The notes beneath the pieces were generated by a model that was not told the DNA's origin, searched no databases, and saw nothing but the letters and a program-made list of their open reading frames with translations. Below are positions 15,964 to 31,854 of a stretch of DNA of 64,000 nucleotides, one piece after another. Every line of letters begins with the position of its first letter. Position 1 is the first letter of the stretch. The position numbers were made by a program, and so were the translations under genes. Origin of the DNA: Marinigracilibium pacificum. Its GTDB lineage: Bacteria > Bacteroidota > Bacteroidia > Cytophagales > Cyclobacteriaceae. The stretch spans positions 248,001 through 312,000 of the forward strand of contig NZ_JABBNU010000005.1 in the NCBI RefSeq assembly GCF_012926615.1. The letters run 5' to 3'.

Positions 15964-15979
15964 AACTAAATTGTTAGTT
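15964..15979. promoter_or_regulatory. AACTA-N6-TAGTT dyad
   Basis: AACTA at 15964-15968 and TAGTT at 15975-15979, six bases apart. It lies 5 bp after the transglycosylase stop and 25 bp before the DUF4837 start. It is the same motif as the cluster around the TonB genes at 28-31 kb, but a single isolated copy could be chance in AT-rich DNA. Confidence 0.35.
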
Positions 15980-16004: not shown

Positions 16005-17084
16005 ATGCTTAGATCCATATCTAAATCAATTTTTATAGTTATTGCAGGTCTCCTAATTGTATCCTGTGATAAGTCATCTAACGAAAATTCTAACCCAAAC
16101 AATTTGCCTAGAGCAGCGGGTGAAGTTTCGCAGTTGATGATCATTGCTGATGATAATCAGTATAGTGGAATGGTTAAAGAAACTATTGGTCAGGTATTCG
16201 GGGTTAACACTCCAGGATTACCAAGGCCAGAGCCAATATACGATGTATTCCAGATCCCCCCTCAAAGACTGAATCGTACCTTACGCGAGATGAGGAATGT
16301 ATTAATTTTAGCTACATCAAAATCTCCTGAGGAAGTTCTGGAATTATATAGTTCTGAAGCGAAGGAAGAATTAAAAAAAGATCCGTCACAATATTTTTCA
16401 GTTCAGCGAAATGTATATTCAAAAAACCAAACTGTTGGTTTATTATATGCTGAAAATGAAGCTCTATTGATAAAATACCTTCATGATAATAAAGAGAAAT
16501 TAAGGGAGTTATATGTTCCAGGTGATTTAAAAGTTATCAGAAGCAGAACATATGCCAATCAGCCAAAAAAATCAGTTGCTGAGCAGTTAATAAAAAAGCA
16601 CCAGTTTTCTATGCAGATTCCTGGTGAATACATGTTAGCAAAAGAAACTGATAATATGGTTTGGTTTAGAAATGCCTTGGACAAAGCAGATTATAGTATT
16701 TGGGCTTATTACACTGACTACAAAGATGAATCTGTTTTTACAAAGGACAGTCTTGTTGCCTTTAGAAACAGAATTGCTAAGGAAAATTTTTATGTTGATC
16801 CTAAAGACCCTAGAACATATATTTCTACAGAACAAGATTATTCTGATGTTGAAATTGACACTGTTAATTTCAACAATAACTTTGCTGTTGAAATGCGTGG
16901 CTTATGGAGATCTAACTATGTTACAATGGGAGGCCCATTTTTAAGTTATACATTTGTTGATCAGTCCAGAAACAGACTTTATTACATCGAAGGATTTTTA
17001 TATTCTCCGGGTCTTGATCAGAGGAATCCCATGAAGAGAATTGAAATAATTCTTAGATCATTTAAAATGCATGAAGAAAAATAA
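16005..17084 (+). CDS. DUF4837 family lipoprotein
   Basis: A 359-residue predicted lipoprotein: signal peptide with lipobox LIVSC (Cys21), then a polar linker (SSNENSNPNN) and a globular region beginning GEVSQLMIIADDNQY. The order of segments (PGLPRPEPIYDVFQIPP near residue 70, a central charged part, then GGPFLSYTFVD and the YYIEGFLYSPG end) matches DUF4837, a Bacteroidota family without a known function. Its place directly after a lytic transglycosylase and before a strong terminator suggests an envelope-related partner, but this is only context. Confidence 0.82.
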   Translation: MLRSISKSIFIVIAGLLIVSCDKSSNENSNPNNLPRAAGEVSQLMIIADDNQYSGMVKETIGQVFGVNTPGLPRPEPIYDVFQIPPQRLNRTLREMRNVLILATSKSPEEVLELYSSEAKEELKKDPSQYFSVQRNVYSKNQTVGLLYAENEALLIKYLHDNKEKLRELYVPGDLKVIRSRTYANQPKKSVAEQLIKKHQFSMQIPGEYMLAKETDNMVWFRNALDKADYSIWAYYTDYKDESVFTKDSLVAFRNRIAKENFYVDPKDPRTYISTEQDYSDVEIDTVNFNNNFAVEMRGLWRSNYVTMGGPFLSYTFVDQSRNRLYYIEGFLYSPGLDQRNPMKRIEIILRSFKMHEEK

Positions 17085-27775: not shown

Positions 27776-28162
27776 TTGTTTGTAAGATATAATCTCTTTG
27801 GAATTATTTGGGCATTGATAATTTCAGTGCTTACGCTGACACCAGGTGAAGAAATGGTAGAAGTAAATATTTGGGGAACTGCCGATGTTTTTACTTTTGC
27901 TCATGTAGGTTTTTTCACAGTTCTGGTGTTTCTGTTGTGCGTTGGTTTTACCAAACAATATACTTTTAAGGAGATAAAAGAAAGGCCAGAAAAATTTGCC
28001 GTGGTATTAGGTGTGATTTTTGGATTTATTCTGGAAATAACCCAAGCATTAATCCCAGGGCGTGTACTGGAAGTTATAGACCTGATTGCCAATAGCATAG
28101 GGTGCCTAGCAGGCTATTTTCTATTCTTTCTTGTTTATAAGGCAACTATAAATTTGTCTTAA
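27776..28162 (+). CDS. VanZ-like family membrane protein
   Basis: A 128-residue inner-membrane protein with four predicted helices. VanZ-like markers are the N-terminal LTLTPGEEM, the HVGFFTVLVFLL helix and the pair EITQALIPGRVLEVIDLIANSIGCLAG split across helices 3 and 4. The biochemical role of such short VanZ proteins is unknown. The start is a TTG 8 bp after gcvH, with no ATG in a suitable place. The last codons contain the -33 element of the tonB promoter. Confidence 0.82.
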   Translation: MFVRYNLFGIIWALIISVLTLTPGEEMVEVNIWGTADVFTFAHVGFFTVLVFLLCVGFTKQYTFKEIKERPEKFAVVLGVIFGFILEITQALIPGRVLEVIDLIANSIGCLAGYFLFFLVYKATINLS

Positions 28163-28183
28163 ACTAAACTTTTAGTATATTTG
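28154..28183 (+). promoter_or_regulatory. tonB promoter P1 (upstream of tandem pair)
   Basis: TTG at 28154-28156 and TATATTTG at 28176-28183, 19 bp apart. The spacer is filled by a near-perfect copy of the AACTA-N6-TAGTT dyad. The predicted start is near 28190. Confidence 0.6.
28162..28177. promoter_or_regulatory. AACTA-N6-TAGTA dyad in promoter P1
   Basis: AACTA at 28162-28166 and TAGTA at 28173-28177. The inner arms ACTAAA and TTTAGT are perfectly complementary around CT. It lies between the -33 and -7 elements of P1, the usual place of a repressor site. One base differs from the exact copies downstream. Confidence 0.55.
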
Positions 28184-28210
28184 ATACGTACTGTAAAATA
28201 GGTATATTTG
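28181..28210 (+). promoter_or_regulatory. tonB promoter P2 (downstream of tandem pair)
   Basis: TTG at 28181-28183, which is the end of the P1 -7 element, and TATATTTG at 28203-28210, again 19 bp apart. The predicted start is near 28217, about 20 bp before the ATG. Confidence 0.6.
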
Positions 28211-28235
28211 AGATTCAATTTGAAGTAAAAATATT

Positions 28236-28910
28236 ATGGAAGTTAAAAAGAGTCCAAAAGCAGACCTCGAAAGGAAGTCACCGCTATTCCTAAGTATTGG
28301 ATACGTGATCACTCTTGCTTTTGTCTTATTCGCATTTGAATATGGCTTCAAGGAAGAGGGAGATATCCAGAATTTCGGGTCAATGAACGAAATCATGGAA
28401 GAAACTATCGATATTCCAATTACTGAACAACCACCTCCACCTCCACCAAAAATTCAACAGCCGGAGATTATTGAGGTACCAGATGAGGAAGAAATCGAAG
28501 AAGAAATCGAAGTAGACCTTGATGTTGAAATCGATGAAGAAACTGTAATCGAAGAAGTTCAGTTCGAAGCAGAACCAGTTGAGGAAGAAGTAGAGCAGGT
28601 ATTTACGATAGTTGAAGAATCTGCAGGTTTCCCTGGTGGTATGGATGCATGGTATACATTCCTTAAAGATAACTTAAAATACCCTTCACAAGCTCGAAGA
28701 ATGGGAATCGAAGGTAGAGTATATGTTGAATTTATCGTAAGTAAAACCGGACAACTTTCTGATATCAGAGTGGTAAAAGGAATTGGCGGAGGTTGCGATG
28801 AAGAAGCAGTCAGAGTTCTAAAACAATCGCCAAGATGGCAGCCGGGTAAACAAAGAGGTCGTCCGGTAATTCAGAAAATGACTTTCCCTATAATGTTCAA
28901 GTTGCAATAA
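28236..28910 (+). CDS. energy transducer TonB (first copy)
   Basis: A 224-residue inner-membrane protein that passes proton-motive energy from ExbB/ExbD to outer-membrane receptors. The short cytoplasmic N-terminus (ERKSPLFLSIGYV) leads to one membrane span (about 20-37), then a Pro-rich piece (PPPPPP near 64-69), a very acidic linker (EEEIEEEIEVDLD) and a TonB C-terminal domain (about 130-224) with FPGGMDAWYTFLK, LKYPSQARRMGIEGRV and KGIGGGCDEEAVRVLKQSP. exbB and exbD are not nearby. It has its own tandem promoter and terminator, unlike the later copies, and its linker is more acidic. Confidence 0.93.
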   Translation: MEVKKSPKADLERKSPLFLSIGYVITLAFVLFAFEYGFKEEGDIQNFGSMNEIMEETIDIPITEQPPPPPPKIQQPEIIEVPDEEEIEEEIEVDLDVEIDEETVIEEVQFEAEPVEEEVEQVFTIVEESAGFPGGMDAWYTFLKDNLKYPSQARRMGIEGRVYVEFIVSKTGQLSDIRVVKGIGGGCDEEAVRVLKQSPRWQPGKQRGRPVIQKMTFPIMFKLQ

Positions 28911-28930
28911 GACAACTCAATATAAATTAA

Positions 28931-28961
28931 AAGCGTGAGAATTATCTCACGCTTTTTTTTT
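28931..28961 (+). terminator. intrinsic terminator after the first tonB
   Basis: Stem AAGCGTGAGA (28931-28940) with TCTCACGCTT (28945-28954), loop ATTA, then a run of nine T. Confidence 0.93.
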
Positions 28962-28977
28962 GTATTTACTTGTTTAT

Positions 28978-28993
28978 AACTAACCAATTAGTT
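28978..28993. promoter_or_regulatory. AACTA-N6-TAGTT dyad, copy upstream of the TonB-C lipoprotein (a)
   Basis: AACTA 28978-28982 and TAGTT 28989-28993. The palindrome extends to a perfect 10-bp inverted repeat (28974-28983 with 28988-28997). Its centre is 22 bp from the next copy, about two helical turns. Confidence 0.6.
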
Positions 28994-28999
28994 ATAATT

Positions 29000-29015
29000 A
29001 ACTATACAATTAGTT
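29000..29015. promoter_or_regulatory. AACTA-N6-TAGTT dyad, copy upstream of the TonB-C lipoprotein (b)
   Basis: AACTA 29000-29004 and TAGTT 29011-29015, ending 9 bp before the ATG at 29025. It stands 22 bp from copy (a), so both would lie on the same face of the helix. Confidence 0.6.
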
Positions 29016-29024
29016 ATAGCAGTT

Positions 29025-29453
29025 ATGAAGAAGCTTTTATACCATCTAATATTTACCTCAGCCGCTTTTATAGCTTGTGAAGATCCAACTGAGAAATTTT
29101 CTTCTGAAAGAAAAATTGAAAGTATTGAAGAGGTTAATAGTGATCACTTCACTTGTATTTTAATAGAATCACAACCTGAATTCCCTGGTGGAATGGATGC
29201 TTATTATGACTATCTCAAAGAGAAGACTAATTCTATAACCCTAAATAAGAAATGTATTGAAGGAAGAATTTACATTCAATTTACAGTTGAAAAAGATGGA
29301 GCGATAACTGAAGTAAATGTCTTAAAAGGGATTGATAAAGAAATTGAAGAAAAAGCAAAATCAATAGTTTCAGGGTTCCCAAAATGGATACCTGGTAAGC
29401 TAGGCAATAAAATTGTTAGGTCAAAAATGATAATACCAATCTACTTTAACTAA
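29025..29453 (+). CDS. lipoprotein consisting of a TonB C-terminal-like domain
   Basis: A 142-residue protein with a signal peptide and probable lipobox FIAC (Cys18). After a short linker it is almost entirely a TonB-C-like domain (about 48-142): PEFPGGMDAYYDYLKE, GRIYIQFTVEKDGAITEVNVLKGI and PKWIPGKLG. It has no inner-membrane anchor helix and no Pro-rich arm, so it cannot couple to ExbB in the normal way. It may sit on the outer or inner membrane as a lipid-anchored partner or competitor, or as a structural protein. The conserved Cys in GGGCDEE of the neighbours is lost. Two dyads precede it. Function unknown. Confidence 0.8.
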   Translation: MKKLLYHLIFTSAAFIACEDPTEKFSSERKIESIEEVNSDHFTCILIESQPEFPGGMDAYYDYLKEKTNSITLNKKCIEGRIYIQFTVEKDGAITEVNVLKGIDKEIEEKAKSIVSGFPKWIPGKLGNKIVRSKMIIPIYFN

Positions 29454-29470
29454 AAAAACTTAATTTGTTT

Positions 29471-29486
29471 AACTAAAATCATAGTT
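29471..29486. promoter_or_regulatory. AACTA-N6-TAGTT dyad before the second tonB
   Basis: AACTA 29471-29475 and TAGTT 29482-29486, ending 2 bp before the ATG at 29489. The same sequence recurs before the third copy because the duplicated unit includes it. Confidence 0.6.
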
Positions 29487-29488
29487 TT

Positions 29489-30163
29489 ATGGAACCTAAA
29501 AAGTCAGATAAGGCCAACTTAGAAAAAAAGTCTCCAATGTTCTTAAGTATTGGTTTTTTAATAGCTCTAGGTACAGTATTAGTTGCTTTTGAATATAAAA
29601 CAAAGCCTGATATGGATATTGTTGGTTGTTCTTTTAATACAAAGGAAATTGAAGATCCATTAATAATTCCACACACCTTTAATGAACCTCCTCCACCTCC
29701 TAAACCAGTAGTACCAAGAATAATAGAGGTACCTGAAATAGAAGATATAGAGGATCCAGATCTTGTAATAGATATTGAAACATCAGAAATAGATATTATT
29801 GACATAGTAACTAATGTTGAAGAGAAAAAGGAAGAGGTCGTTGAAGATAAAGTTCATGATTTTGTTGAAGAACAAGCCAACTTCCCTGGTGGGCAAACTG
29901 AATGGATGAAGTATTTACAGAAAAACATGAAGTATCCTTCCAATGCAAGACGAATGGGAATAGAGGGGAAAGTGTATGTTCAGTTTATAATTGACAAATC
30001 AGGTGAATTAAGCGACATCAAAGTTGTAAAGGGTATCGGAGGCGGATGTGATGAAGAAGCTTTAAGAGTTATTCAAAATGCTCCAAAATGGAACCCTGGC
30101 AAACAAAGAGGAAGGGCTGTAAAGCAAAGAATGACGTTACCTGTATTCTTTCAATTACAATAA
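29489..30163 (+). CDS. energy transducer TonB (second copy)
   Basis: A 224-residue TonB-family protein. It has a cytoplasmic N-terminus (EKKSPMFLSIGF), one membrane helix (about 20-37), a short Pro stretch (NEPPPPPKPVVP near 65-76), an acidic linker, and a TonB-C domain (about 128-224) with ANFPGGQTEWMKYLQ and GIGGGCDEEALRVIQ. It is the sister of the next gene. The first 46 residues and last 99 are nearly the same in both, while the linker between about 47 and 120 has diverged strongly. No internal terminator separates the two, and no separate promoter is obvious, so they may be co-transcribed with the lipoprotein gene. No receptor gene is adjacent. Confidence 0.92.
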   Translation: MEPKKSDKANLEKKSPMFLSIGFLIALGTVLVAFEYKTKPDMDIVGCSFNTKEIEDPLIIPHTFNEPPPPPKPVVPRIIEVPEIEDIEDPDLVIDIETSEIDIIDIVTNVEEKKEEVVEDKVHDFVEEQANFPGGQTEWMKYLQKNMKYPSNARRMGIEGKVYVQFIIDKSGELSDIKVVKGIGGGCDEEALRVIQNAPKWNPGKQRGRAVKQRMTLPVFFQLQ

Positions 30164-30202
30164 ATCTTTTACTAATACAAGATAAAAAAATTTAAATTGT
30201 TT

Positions 30203-30218
30203 AACTAAAATCATAGTT
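30203..30218. promoter_or_regulatory. AACTA-N6-TAGTT dyad before the third tonB
   Basis: AACTA 30203-30207 and TAGTT 30214-30218, ending 2 bp before the ATG at 30221, in a leader nearly identical to that of the second copy. Confidence 0.6.
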
Positions 30219-30220
30219 TT

Positions 30221-30895
30221 ATGGAACCTAAAAAGTCAGATAAAGCCAACTTGGAAAAAAAGTCTCCAATGTTCTTAAGTATTGGTTTTTTAATAGCCCT
30301 GGGAGCAGTATTAGCAGCTTTTGAGTATAAAACCAAACCTGATTTGGATATTGATAACTTTACATCAAATAACACCAACACTGAAGAGCTAATTGATATA
30401 CCAGTTACATTTAATGATCCTCCTCCACCTCCGAAACCAGTGGTACCTAATGTTATCGAGGTTGAAGAAGACGAAATAATTGATGAACCGGAATATGAAT
30501 TTACTTTAGAAACTAGTGAAACTGAAATCGTAGATATCGTTACGCATGTAGAAAAGAAAACAGAAGAGAAAGTTGATAATGAAATTCATGATATTGTAGA
30601 AGAACAAGCTAACTTCCCTGGTGGTCAAACTGCATGGATGAAATATTTACAAAAAAATATGAAGTACCCATCTCAAGCAAGACGAATGGGAATAGAAGGA
30701 AAAGTGTATGTTCAATTTATAATTGACAAATCGGGTGAGTTAACTGACATCAAAGTAGTAAAAGGTATTGGTGGAGGATGTGATGAAGAAGCCTTAAGAG
30801 TTATTCAAAATGCTCCTAATTGGAATCCTGGTAAGCAAAGAGGCAGAGCTGTAAAACAAAGAATGACATTGCCTGTATTCTTTCAATTACAATAA
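30221..30895 (+). CDS. energy transducer TonB (third copy)
   Basis: A 224-residue paralogue of the preceding gene, of exactly equal length. The anchor and TonB-C domain differ from the second copy at only a few residues (for example TAWMKY for TEWMKY and APNWNPG for APKWNPG). The periplasmic linker (NNTNTEELIDIPV, DEIIDEPEYEFTLE) is different in sequence but equally acidic. Many synonymous changes separate the two genes, so the duplication is not recent and the ends are under purifying selection. It ends before a bidirectional terminator shared with yicC. Confidence 0.92.
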   Translation: MEPKKSDKANLEKKSPMFLSIGFLIALGAVLAAFEYKTKPDLDIDNFTSNNTNTEELIDIPVTFNDPPPPPKPVVPNVIEVEEDEIIDEPEYEFTLETSETEIVDIVTHVEKKTEEKVDNEIHDIVEEQANFPGGQTAWMKYLQKNMKYPSQARRMGIEGKVYVQFIIDKSGELTDIKVVKGIGGGCDEEALRVIQNAPNWNPGKQRGRAVKQRMTLPVFFQLQ

Positions 30896-30911
30896 TTTTT
30901 TTACTTATTTT

Positions 30912-30927
30912 AACTAAAAAAATAGTT
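30912..30927. promoter_or_regulatory. AACTA-N6-TAGTT dyad downstream of the third tonB
   Basis: AACTA 30912-30916 and TAGTT 30923-30927, between the last tonB stop and the terminator. No gene follows on this strand, so it may be a relic of the leader of a lost copy, or an extra binding site. Confidence 0.5.
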
Positions 30928-30938
30928 GCATAATATTA

Positions 30939-30970
30939 AAAAAAGGAGCGATAAATACCGCTCCTTTTTT
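30939..30970. terminator. bidirectional terminator between tonB and yicC
   Basis: Stem of 12 bp (30939-30950 with 30959-30970, core GGAGCG/CGCTCC) flanked by A and T runs, so it can end transcripts from both convergent genes. Confidence 0.88.
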
Positions 30971-30972
30971 CT

Positions 30973-31854
30973 TTATAAAATATTTAAAATTTGTTCTTTA
31001 ATCTGCTCCAATGATTCCTTCATGTTAACGACATATTTTTGAATCATGGCATCATTTGCTTTACTTCCGATAGTATTAATTTCACGCCCAATTTCCTGAC
31101 CGATAAAATTTAATTTCTTACCACTACTATCATCATAATCCAACACCTCTGTAAAATAATCAAGATGGGCTTTTAGACGCACTTTCTCTTCATTAATATC
31201 AAGCTTTTCAATATAATAGATTAGTTCTTGCTCGAACCTGTTCTCATCAACCTTATCCTTGTCAATATATTCTTTGATATTCTTTTCAATGCGTTCTCGA
31301 ATCATCTCAACACGAGCTGGATCTCTTTCCTTAACCTTTTCAAGATAATTACCGATGTTATCTATTTCATTATGTATCTGGTCAGATAATATCTTTCCTT
31401 CCTTTTGTCGAAAGGCGTCTGTTTTATTCAAGGCTTCTTGAATTGTCTGTTCAATTATAGGCCAAAATTGAGCTATTTCTTCTTCATCCAGAAAGTCCTC
31501 CATTACATCAGGAGACTGAACTGCAAGCCTGAAAATATCCGCATCAGAAACATGGTTTACTGCATTTTTAAGCTCTGATAATTCATGATAATAATGCTTA
31601 AATAACAGCTTATTATACTTTATCCTGGCTAAACTATCATCCTTTACTTGAAAATCGATGGAAATGGTAACTTTCCCTCTTTGAAGTATTTTTGATATAA
31701 GAGATTTTACTTCGATTTCTTTCGCAGTAAACTCTTTTGGTAATTTGATTTGTGTATCTAGGTACTTTGAATTGAGTGATTTTACCTCAACCATTACCAG
31801 ACAATGCTCATCTTCATGTCTGGTCATTCCATACCCCGTCATTGATTTAATCAT
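30973..31854 (-). CDS. yicC: YicC family endoribonuclease
   Basis: A 293-residue cytoplasmic protein of the YicC/YloC family, shown in some bacteria to be an endoribonuclease. It starts with the hallmark MIKSMTGYG and has VEVKSLNSKYLD (about residues 22-33). The C-terminal DUF1732-like part contains FEQELIYYIEKLDINEE, AHLDYF and GKKLNFIGQEIGREINTIGSKAND. Length is normal. In many bacteria yicC precedes gmk, which is not seen on the visible side here. It shares its terminator with the tonB cluster and lies 45 bp after the upstream minus-strand gene. Confidence 0.94.
   Translation of the reverse strand: MIKSMTGYGMTRHEDEHCLVMVEVKSLNSKYLDTQIKLPKEFTAKEIEVKSLISKILQRGKVTISIDFQVKDDSLARIKYNKLLFKHYYHELSELKNAVNHVSDADIFRLAVQSPDVMEDFLDEEEIAQFWPIIEQTIQEALNKTDAFRQKEGKILSDQIHNEIDNIGNYLEKVKERDPARVEMIRERIEKNIKEYIDKDKVDENRFEQELIYYIEKLDINEEKVRLKAHLDYFTEVLDYDDSSGKKLNFIGQEIGREINTIGSKANDAMIQKYVVNMKESLEQIKEQILNIL

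Follow-up and report, generated by a model that had tools for sequence, protein, structure and literature searches.

What is the role of the 16-bp dyad that recurs around a cluster of tonB genes in Marinigracilibium pacificum, and which protein would bind it? The window, by which we mean the whole stretch of 64,000 nucleotides that was analysed, covers positions 248,001 to 312,000 of contig NZ_JABBNU010000005.1; in our numbering it lies on contig C33 of the 4.96-Mb, 37-contig genome G000 and contains four genes for TonB_C proteins as well as a DUF4837 gene. We conclude that the dyad, AACTA-N6-TAGTT (core ACTA-N6-TAGT), is very probably bound as an operator by one clade of winged-helix repressors of the BlaI/MecI type (Penicillinase_R), and that a member encoded on contig C5, outside the window, would control its own operon together with a tonB/envelope regulon.

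Exact copies of the 16-mer occur six times in the window (Table 1), with five falling within positions 28978-30927. The site at 28162, AACTAAACTTTTAGTA, has one mismatch to the 16-mer that lies outside the core, leaving the core exact. A sequence-only reading of the window had listed 28162 and five exact copies, all at the right coordinates, and the copy at 15964 is a sixth that it did not list. Its estimate of a chance rate of a fraction of one site per 64 kb agrees with dinucleotide shuffling, in which the mean was 0.16 exact sites and none of 100 shuffles reached six. When the letters of the half-site were rearranged (20 orderings in all), the other 19 orderings yielded zero or one match, and with the native half-sites none of the other spacer lengths between 0 and 15 yielded any. 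These shuffle, letter-order and spacer controls rule out chance or base composition as the cause of the clustering, while a shared leader, as that reading had also said, accounts for just the copies at 29471 and 30203. Sites with up to two mismatches were found at chance level (72 compared to 62.4 expected), so only near-exact sites carry signal. Positions 6 and 7 and their mirrors are variable among the window sites.

Genome-wide totals are misleading on their own, since the whole genome contains 16 exact sites compared to 63 for the reversed motif, which served as the control pattern, and 318 compared to 1012 when up to one mismatch is allowed; the evidence thus rests on shared positions, tandem pairs and neighbouring genes. 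Twelve of the 16 exact sites fall at six loci common to the three congeners compared (this genome, G001 and G002), namely a blaI-M56 operon (C5, tandem pair), a DUF4349 gene (C3, tandem pair), the region between two exbD pairs (C7), a gene for a thioredoxin-like lipoprotein (C12), and the DUF4837 gene and tonB cluster (C33). The genome-wide scan that had been proposed from sequence alone led to a tandem pair in a BlaI-M56 promoter. Among the other four exact sites, two are inside listed reading frames (C2:27277 and C23:297397), one is in a short frame recognised by eye (C12:230058), and one is intergenic and not shared with the congeners (C23:2114). Of the exact sites in the congeners, 11/12 in G001 and 11/13 in G002 fall at loci where one or both of the other two species also have a site, and one G002 site (C3:217452) lies 10 bp behind a stop. 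At most loci the half-sites are kept among the congeners and the spacers differ, as at the DUF4837 gene (AACTAAATTGTTAGTT versus AACTAATGGTTTAGTT); no difference is seen among the three at the tonB1 site. A divergent pair of transglutaminase-like and lipoprotein genes carries a site in G001 and G002 only, and no site was found upstream of the transglutaminase-like ortholog (L225/L234 in the congeners) in this genome.

The sequence-only reading had proposed an operator for a dimeric regulator, with a BlaI/MecI-type repressor as one guess. A search for a co-occurring BlaI-type gene identified five Penicillinase_R genes in the genome, four of which have core-type dyads upstream. The C5 blaI gene alone has the exact tandem pair, AACTA...TAGTT occurring twice, 20 bp apart, with cores beginning 48 and 28 bp before the start; three paralogues have the upstream dyads TACTATAAATATAGTT, TACTACATCTATAGTA and AACTACAATTGTAGTA, and the fifth has no core-type dyad upstream. 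The C5 protein is 132 amino acids long, matches PF03965 at 105 bits and matches the MecI structures 1okr and 1sax (E 3.6e-13). BlaI relatives were present in 41 of 59 related genomes searched, and we scanned 350 bp upstream of 101 BlaI genes from 41 genomes, our own included, for the exact core. It was present upstream of 47/101 genes, compared to 0.58 expected (computed over 100 of them) and 1/101 for the reversed control, and upstream of 29 of the 40 genes at 56% identity or above. These observations support the BlaI/MecI guess, and the repressor acting at the window sites is most likely the C5 BlaI, encoded together with an M56 membrane metalloprotease.

Tandem pairs provide a further link between the dyad and BlaI. 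In the 59 related genomes the tandem-pair pattern occurred 45 times, compared to 11 for the reversed control. When the pairs were given to genes by hand-matched coordinates and an extra neighbour check, 25 preceded BlaI genes, nine TonB genes, two M56 genes and one a DUF4349 gene, with eight other or unassigned; in G011, G014 and G027 the pair stands before a TonB gene with BlaI directly behind it. Genomes with a pair made up 26/41 of those having BlaI and 1/18 of those without it (Fisher p = 3.5e-5). In a phylum-level sample of 296 genomes, an exact 20-bp pair was found in 35 genomes and its reversed control in none, and BlaI adjoins the pair at 24 of 27 loci examined (27 of the 35 pair-bearing genomes, our own locus having been excluded from 28). 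The usual spacing is 20 bp (21/32 neighbouring exact sites before BlaI genes), so that the 22 bp between the two dyads before tonB2 is unusual. Of the eight other or unassigned pairs in the 59 genomes, one lies 212 bp before an outer-membrane receptor-like gene (OMP_b-brl_3; L205:1326-1359) and one before a MacB/FtsX-type permease gene (L211:2293-2326), hinting at wider regulons in relatives.

The outer operator bases track the repressor as well. On a BlaI tree of weak resolution, two switches between A and T account for the outer base of all 47 genes, and a second BlaI clade has TTCTA-N6-TAGAA upstream of 10/14 genes, compared to 0/87 elsewhere. The segment AYNT lines up with SPKT in MecI, and we take it to be the recognition helix; its second residue is tyrosine in 37/37 AACTA rows and 0/12 TTCTA/CTCTA rows. 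On this evidence, operator flavour (AACTA versus TTCTA) follows the BlaI clade and the helix tyrosine.

Several smaller features were seen among the BlaI rows. Among the ten genes of the second clade that have TTCTA-N6-TAGAA (L285, L287, L288, L289, L296, L297, L298, L300, L301 and L303), a TATATTTG-type -7 element lies inside the dyad in several rows, and five of the ten rows have a one-mismatch copy 20 bp away. A subclade (L042, L044, L046 and L047) has a dyad lengthened by one base (AACTAAATGGATAAGTT in L044, L046 and L047; AACTAAATTCATAAGTT in L042), and in three of the four genomes a core site lies ~240 bp before tonB.

The position of the dyad suggests how it might act. The consensus for the -7-type element is TAnnTTTG, and the tonB1 promoter has TTTG, a 19-bp spacer and the -7-type element TATATTTG (Table 1), with the dyad within the spacer, as the sequence-only reading had recognised. 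The blaI promoter shares this geometry: TTTG is in the inter-dyad linker, followed by 19 bp holding the second dyad and then TATTTTTG. Among the 47 BlaI promoters with a core, TAnnTTTG was found beside the downstream dyad in 11, compared to 0.8 expected, nine of the 11 being at the same offset (three of these nine from our own genus); TTG lies just upstream of the downstream dyad in 23/47, a count for which no expectation was computed. Since the dyad fills the -33/-7 spacer of both tonB1 and blaI, a bound repressor would exclude RNA polymerase.

How far does control of tonB extend? The earlier suggestion of a TonB regulon is supported by sites at orthologous tonB genes in the two congeners and in seven Roseivirga loci, where 19/19 listed tonB genes have a core site upstream (with spacers that differ at most loci), but it does not hold as a general TonB rule; the regulon would also take in more than TonB, namely the blaI-M56 operon and the exbD, DUF4349, DUF4837 and thioredoxin-like lipoprotein genes. 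Among named organisms, those with similar TonB proteins belong mostly to the Cytophagales, e.g. Roseivirga, Reichenbachiella and Ekhidna. The predicted target proteins carry PF03544 and PF02472 by Pfam. No beta-lactamase or PBP2a gene was found at the six shared loci, the neighbours of the other four exact sites and of mismatched sites lying outside that search. It is the TonB nutrient-uptake machinery, along with the gene for the repressor itself, that appears to be the target, not a gene for antibiotic resistance.

Several observations weigh against this interpretation. In two surveys of 300 bp upstream of TonB relatives, the exact core was present in only 14/80 and 7/29 regions (one of 30 loci in the second was dropped as too short); beyond the genus, control of TonB is patchy. 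Sites at ExbD genes (3/30) and DUF4349 genes (3/24) are confined to our own genus, no site being present in the remaining 48 regions, which can serve as negative controls. For BlaI itself, 54/101 genes lack an exact core in the 350 bp scanned; a TonB-first operon order or a dyad of another flavour accounts for some of them, not all. The helix tyrosine also occurs in 43/48 rows without a perfect dyad and is thus not sufficient for operator flavour. The reversed control for pairs is not zero in the relatives, and dyads 4 and 5 lie 2 bp from an ATG. Where the earlier reading placed one copy before each tonB gene or its leader, dyad 6 has to be set apart: it precedes no gene, sitting between the tonB4 stop (30895) and a terminator-like hairpin, convergent with a minus-strand gene (30973-31854), and is perhaps an auxiliary or looping site. 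Lastly, four other BlaI genes are present in this genome, three with related sites, so the paralogue acting at tonB is assigned from the outer bases only.

The last point, together with the better conservation of the core at the repressor's own promoter (29/40 close BlaI genes) than upstream of TonB relatives (14/80), would also fit a BlaI-family operator that is mainly autoregulatory, in which case the tonB copies would come from duplicated leaders or belong to another paralogue and TonB would not be a C5 target. We consider this improbable, since the sites at tonB1, tonB2 and tonB3 differ in spacer and recur in two congeners, every listed tonB gene in the seven Roseivirga loci has a site, and nine tandem pairs precede TonB genes in the 59 genomes. 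Palindromes this long would be compatible with many families, and the dyad might conceivably belong to some other dimeric repressor, of TetR or another family, that happens to have blaI among its targets; genes of this kind were not searched for. However, pairs track the presence of BlaI both among the related genomes and across the phylum loci, and the outer bases track the BlaI tree and the BlaI helix, which makes this explanation highly improbable.

It is also conceivable that the palindrome acts as RNA, forming a small stem-loop in the leaders of tonB messages, given that its arms are complementary and that dyads 4 and 5 are so close to the ATG. This we regard as extremely unlikely: the tonB1 and blaI dyads are inside the -33/-7 spacer and hence precede the start of any RNA made from that promoter, a 5-bp A/U-rich stem would probably be weak, and both the 20-bp spacing and the association with the BlaI helix speak for action at the level of DNA.

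The cluster itself lies downstream of gcvH- and VanZ-like genes, both recognised by eye, and its features are given in Table 1. The tonB2 protein lacks the proline-rich stretch found in the cluster's other TonB proteins, and a similar small lipoprotein-like gene lies behind tonB in L118 (3374-3799). G001 and G002 have a single gene where this genome has tonB3 and tonB4.

Table 1. Operator dyads, promoter elements and genes in the window (positions are those of the window).
Feature	Position	Strand	Basis or conservation
Operator dyad upstream of DUF4837 gene	15964..15979	+	Also in G001 and G002, where the spacer differs
DUF4837 protein (PF16125), predicted regulon member	16005..17084	+	Pfam
TTTG, -33-type element of tonB1 promoter	28153..28156	+	Sequence; same in both congeners
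Operator dyad 1, AACTAAACTTTTAGTA, in 19-bp spacer of tonB1 promoter, overlapping -7 by 2 bp	28162..28177	+	Identical in G001 and G002
TATATTTG, -7-type element of tonB1 promoter	28176..28183	+	Sequence
tonB1, 224 amino acids, TonB_C (PF03544)	28236..28910	+	Pfam
Operator dyad 2, first of tandem pair	28978..28993	+	22-bp-spaced pair also in G001 and G002
Operator dyad 3, second of tandem pair	29000..29015	+	Exact match; pair in G001 and G002
tonB2, 142 amino acids, TonB_C; lipoprotein-like N-terminus by eye	29025..29453	+	Pfam
Operator dyad 4, ending two bases ahead of tonB3 ATG	29471..29486	+	Site at same place in G001 and G002
tonB3, 224 amino acids, TonB_C	29489..30163	+	Pfam
Operator dyad 5, ending two bases ahead of tonB4 ATG, leader as dyad 4	30203..30218	+	Exact match
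tonB4, 224 amino acids, TonB_C	30221..30895	+	Pfam
Operator-type dyad 6, behind last tonB gene	30912..30927	+	Site at same place in G001 and G002
Terminator-like hairpin GGAGCG...CGCTCC, then T run	30945..30964	+	By eye

The M56 partner of the C5 BlaI is a protein of 467 amino acids with the HEXXH-type motif HEYYH (PF05569). Among 27 partner frames recovered from 30 BlaI loci of relatives (three loci gave no partner frame, and one frame, L028, is without HEXXH and is not an M56 protein), 21 end in a TonB_C domain with E below 1e-8. In our own genus the C-terminus reached only E 0.1 to 2.4 with the TonB_C profile, and Pfam reports Peptidase_M56 only. Alignment of the C-terminal 128 amino acids of the protein from this genome with TonB_C using hhalign gave a probability of 59% and E 9e-5. 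A model of this region (mean predicted local distance difference test score 66.7) retrieved the C-terminal domains (CTDs) of HasB, TonB and FusB and TolA III at Foldseek ranks 1-9, with no match at E 0.001 or better. On profile and model evidence, the M56 C-terminal domain of our genus is a diverged TonB-CTD-like domain; neither Pfam nor Foldseek ranks 1-9 indicated a beta-lactamase-like sensor domain there.

This arrangement recalls the BlaI/MecI-BlaR1/MecR1 systems of staphylococci and Bacillus licheniformis, as described in PMC7593790 and PMC3305447. In both, the gene for a Penicillinase_R repressor adjoins that for an M56 protein carrying HEXXH, a C-terminal domain follows the membrane part, and several operators are located at the repressor's own promoter. 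However, the C-terminal domain of BlaR1/MecR1 is beta-lactamase-like whereas that of the M56 protein here is TonB-CTD-like, the shared target loci here are tonB/exbD and other envelope-type genes, and the inner CA..TG of the TACA-NN-TGTA core of bla/mec operators is not kept, ACTACAATTGTAGT occurring among the BlaI rows only in L286, L290 and L307. The earlier reading knew of no described site of this form, but the 16-bp CopR/CopY cop operator RNYKACANNTGTMRNY, as given in PMC7253601, is a precedent: its outer columns R1, Y3, K4 and A5 and their mirrors fit AACTA...TAGTT by eye, although the site at 28162 fails at column 16 (the last base) and conservation here does not extend to C6, A7 and their mirrors. 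No copper exporter was found among the site-neighbour genes run through Pfam. Among the matches listed in the open-access literature (subscription papers being outside the scope), no paper dealt with the motif or with a BlaI-TonB regulon. In well-studied bacteria tonB is controlled by iron regulators such as Fur, whereas a BlaI-type repressor is indicated here.

We propose that a BlaI dimer would bind each dyad, two dimers sitting 20 bp apart at the blaI promoter, and that, judging from position, BlaI at tonB1 and blaI would bind in competition with RNA polymerase. The C5 BlaI would in this way repress blaI-M56, the tonB cluster, the exbD pair and the DUF4349, DUF4837 and thioredoxin-like lipoprotein genes. 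By analogy with BlaR1/MecR1 (PMC7593790), the M56 protein may sense an envelope signal through its periplasmic TonB-CTD-like C-terminal domain and then cleave BlaI, derepressing the regulon. A more specific version, which we put forward tentatively and think rather unlikely, is a TonB homeostasis circuit. In this circuit, the TonB-type domain of M56 might, like TonB itself, bind peptidoglycan or TonB boxes; a shortage of TonB with respect to its receptors would leave this domain engaged, BlaI would be cut and tonB/exbD derepressed, with the lipoprotein-like TonB_C protein encoded by tonB2 competing as a damper.

The targets of most BlaI relatives are not evident from their name, and the motif gives a readable operator; since the outer operator bases differ by clade, regulons should be predictable from sequence. 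Bacteroidota rely on TonB-dependent uptake for the import of polysaccharides and iron. The motif ties one BlaI clade to the energy supply of this uptake, and with its TonB-like domain the M56 partner offers a possible means for the cell to gauge its demand for TonB.

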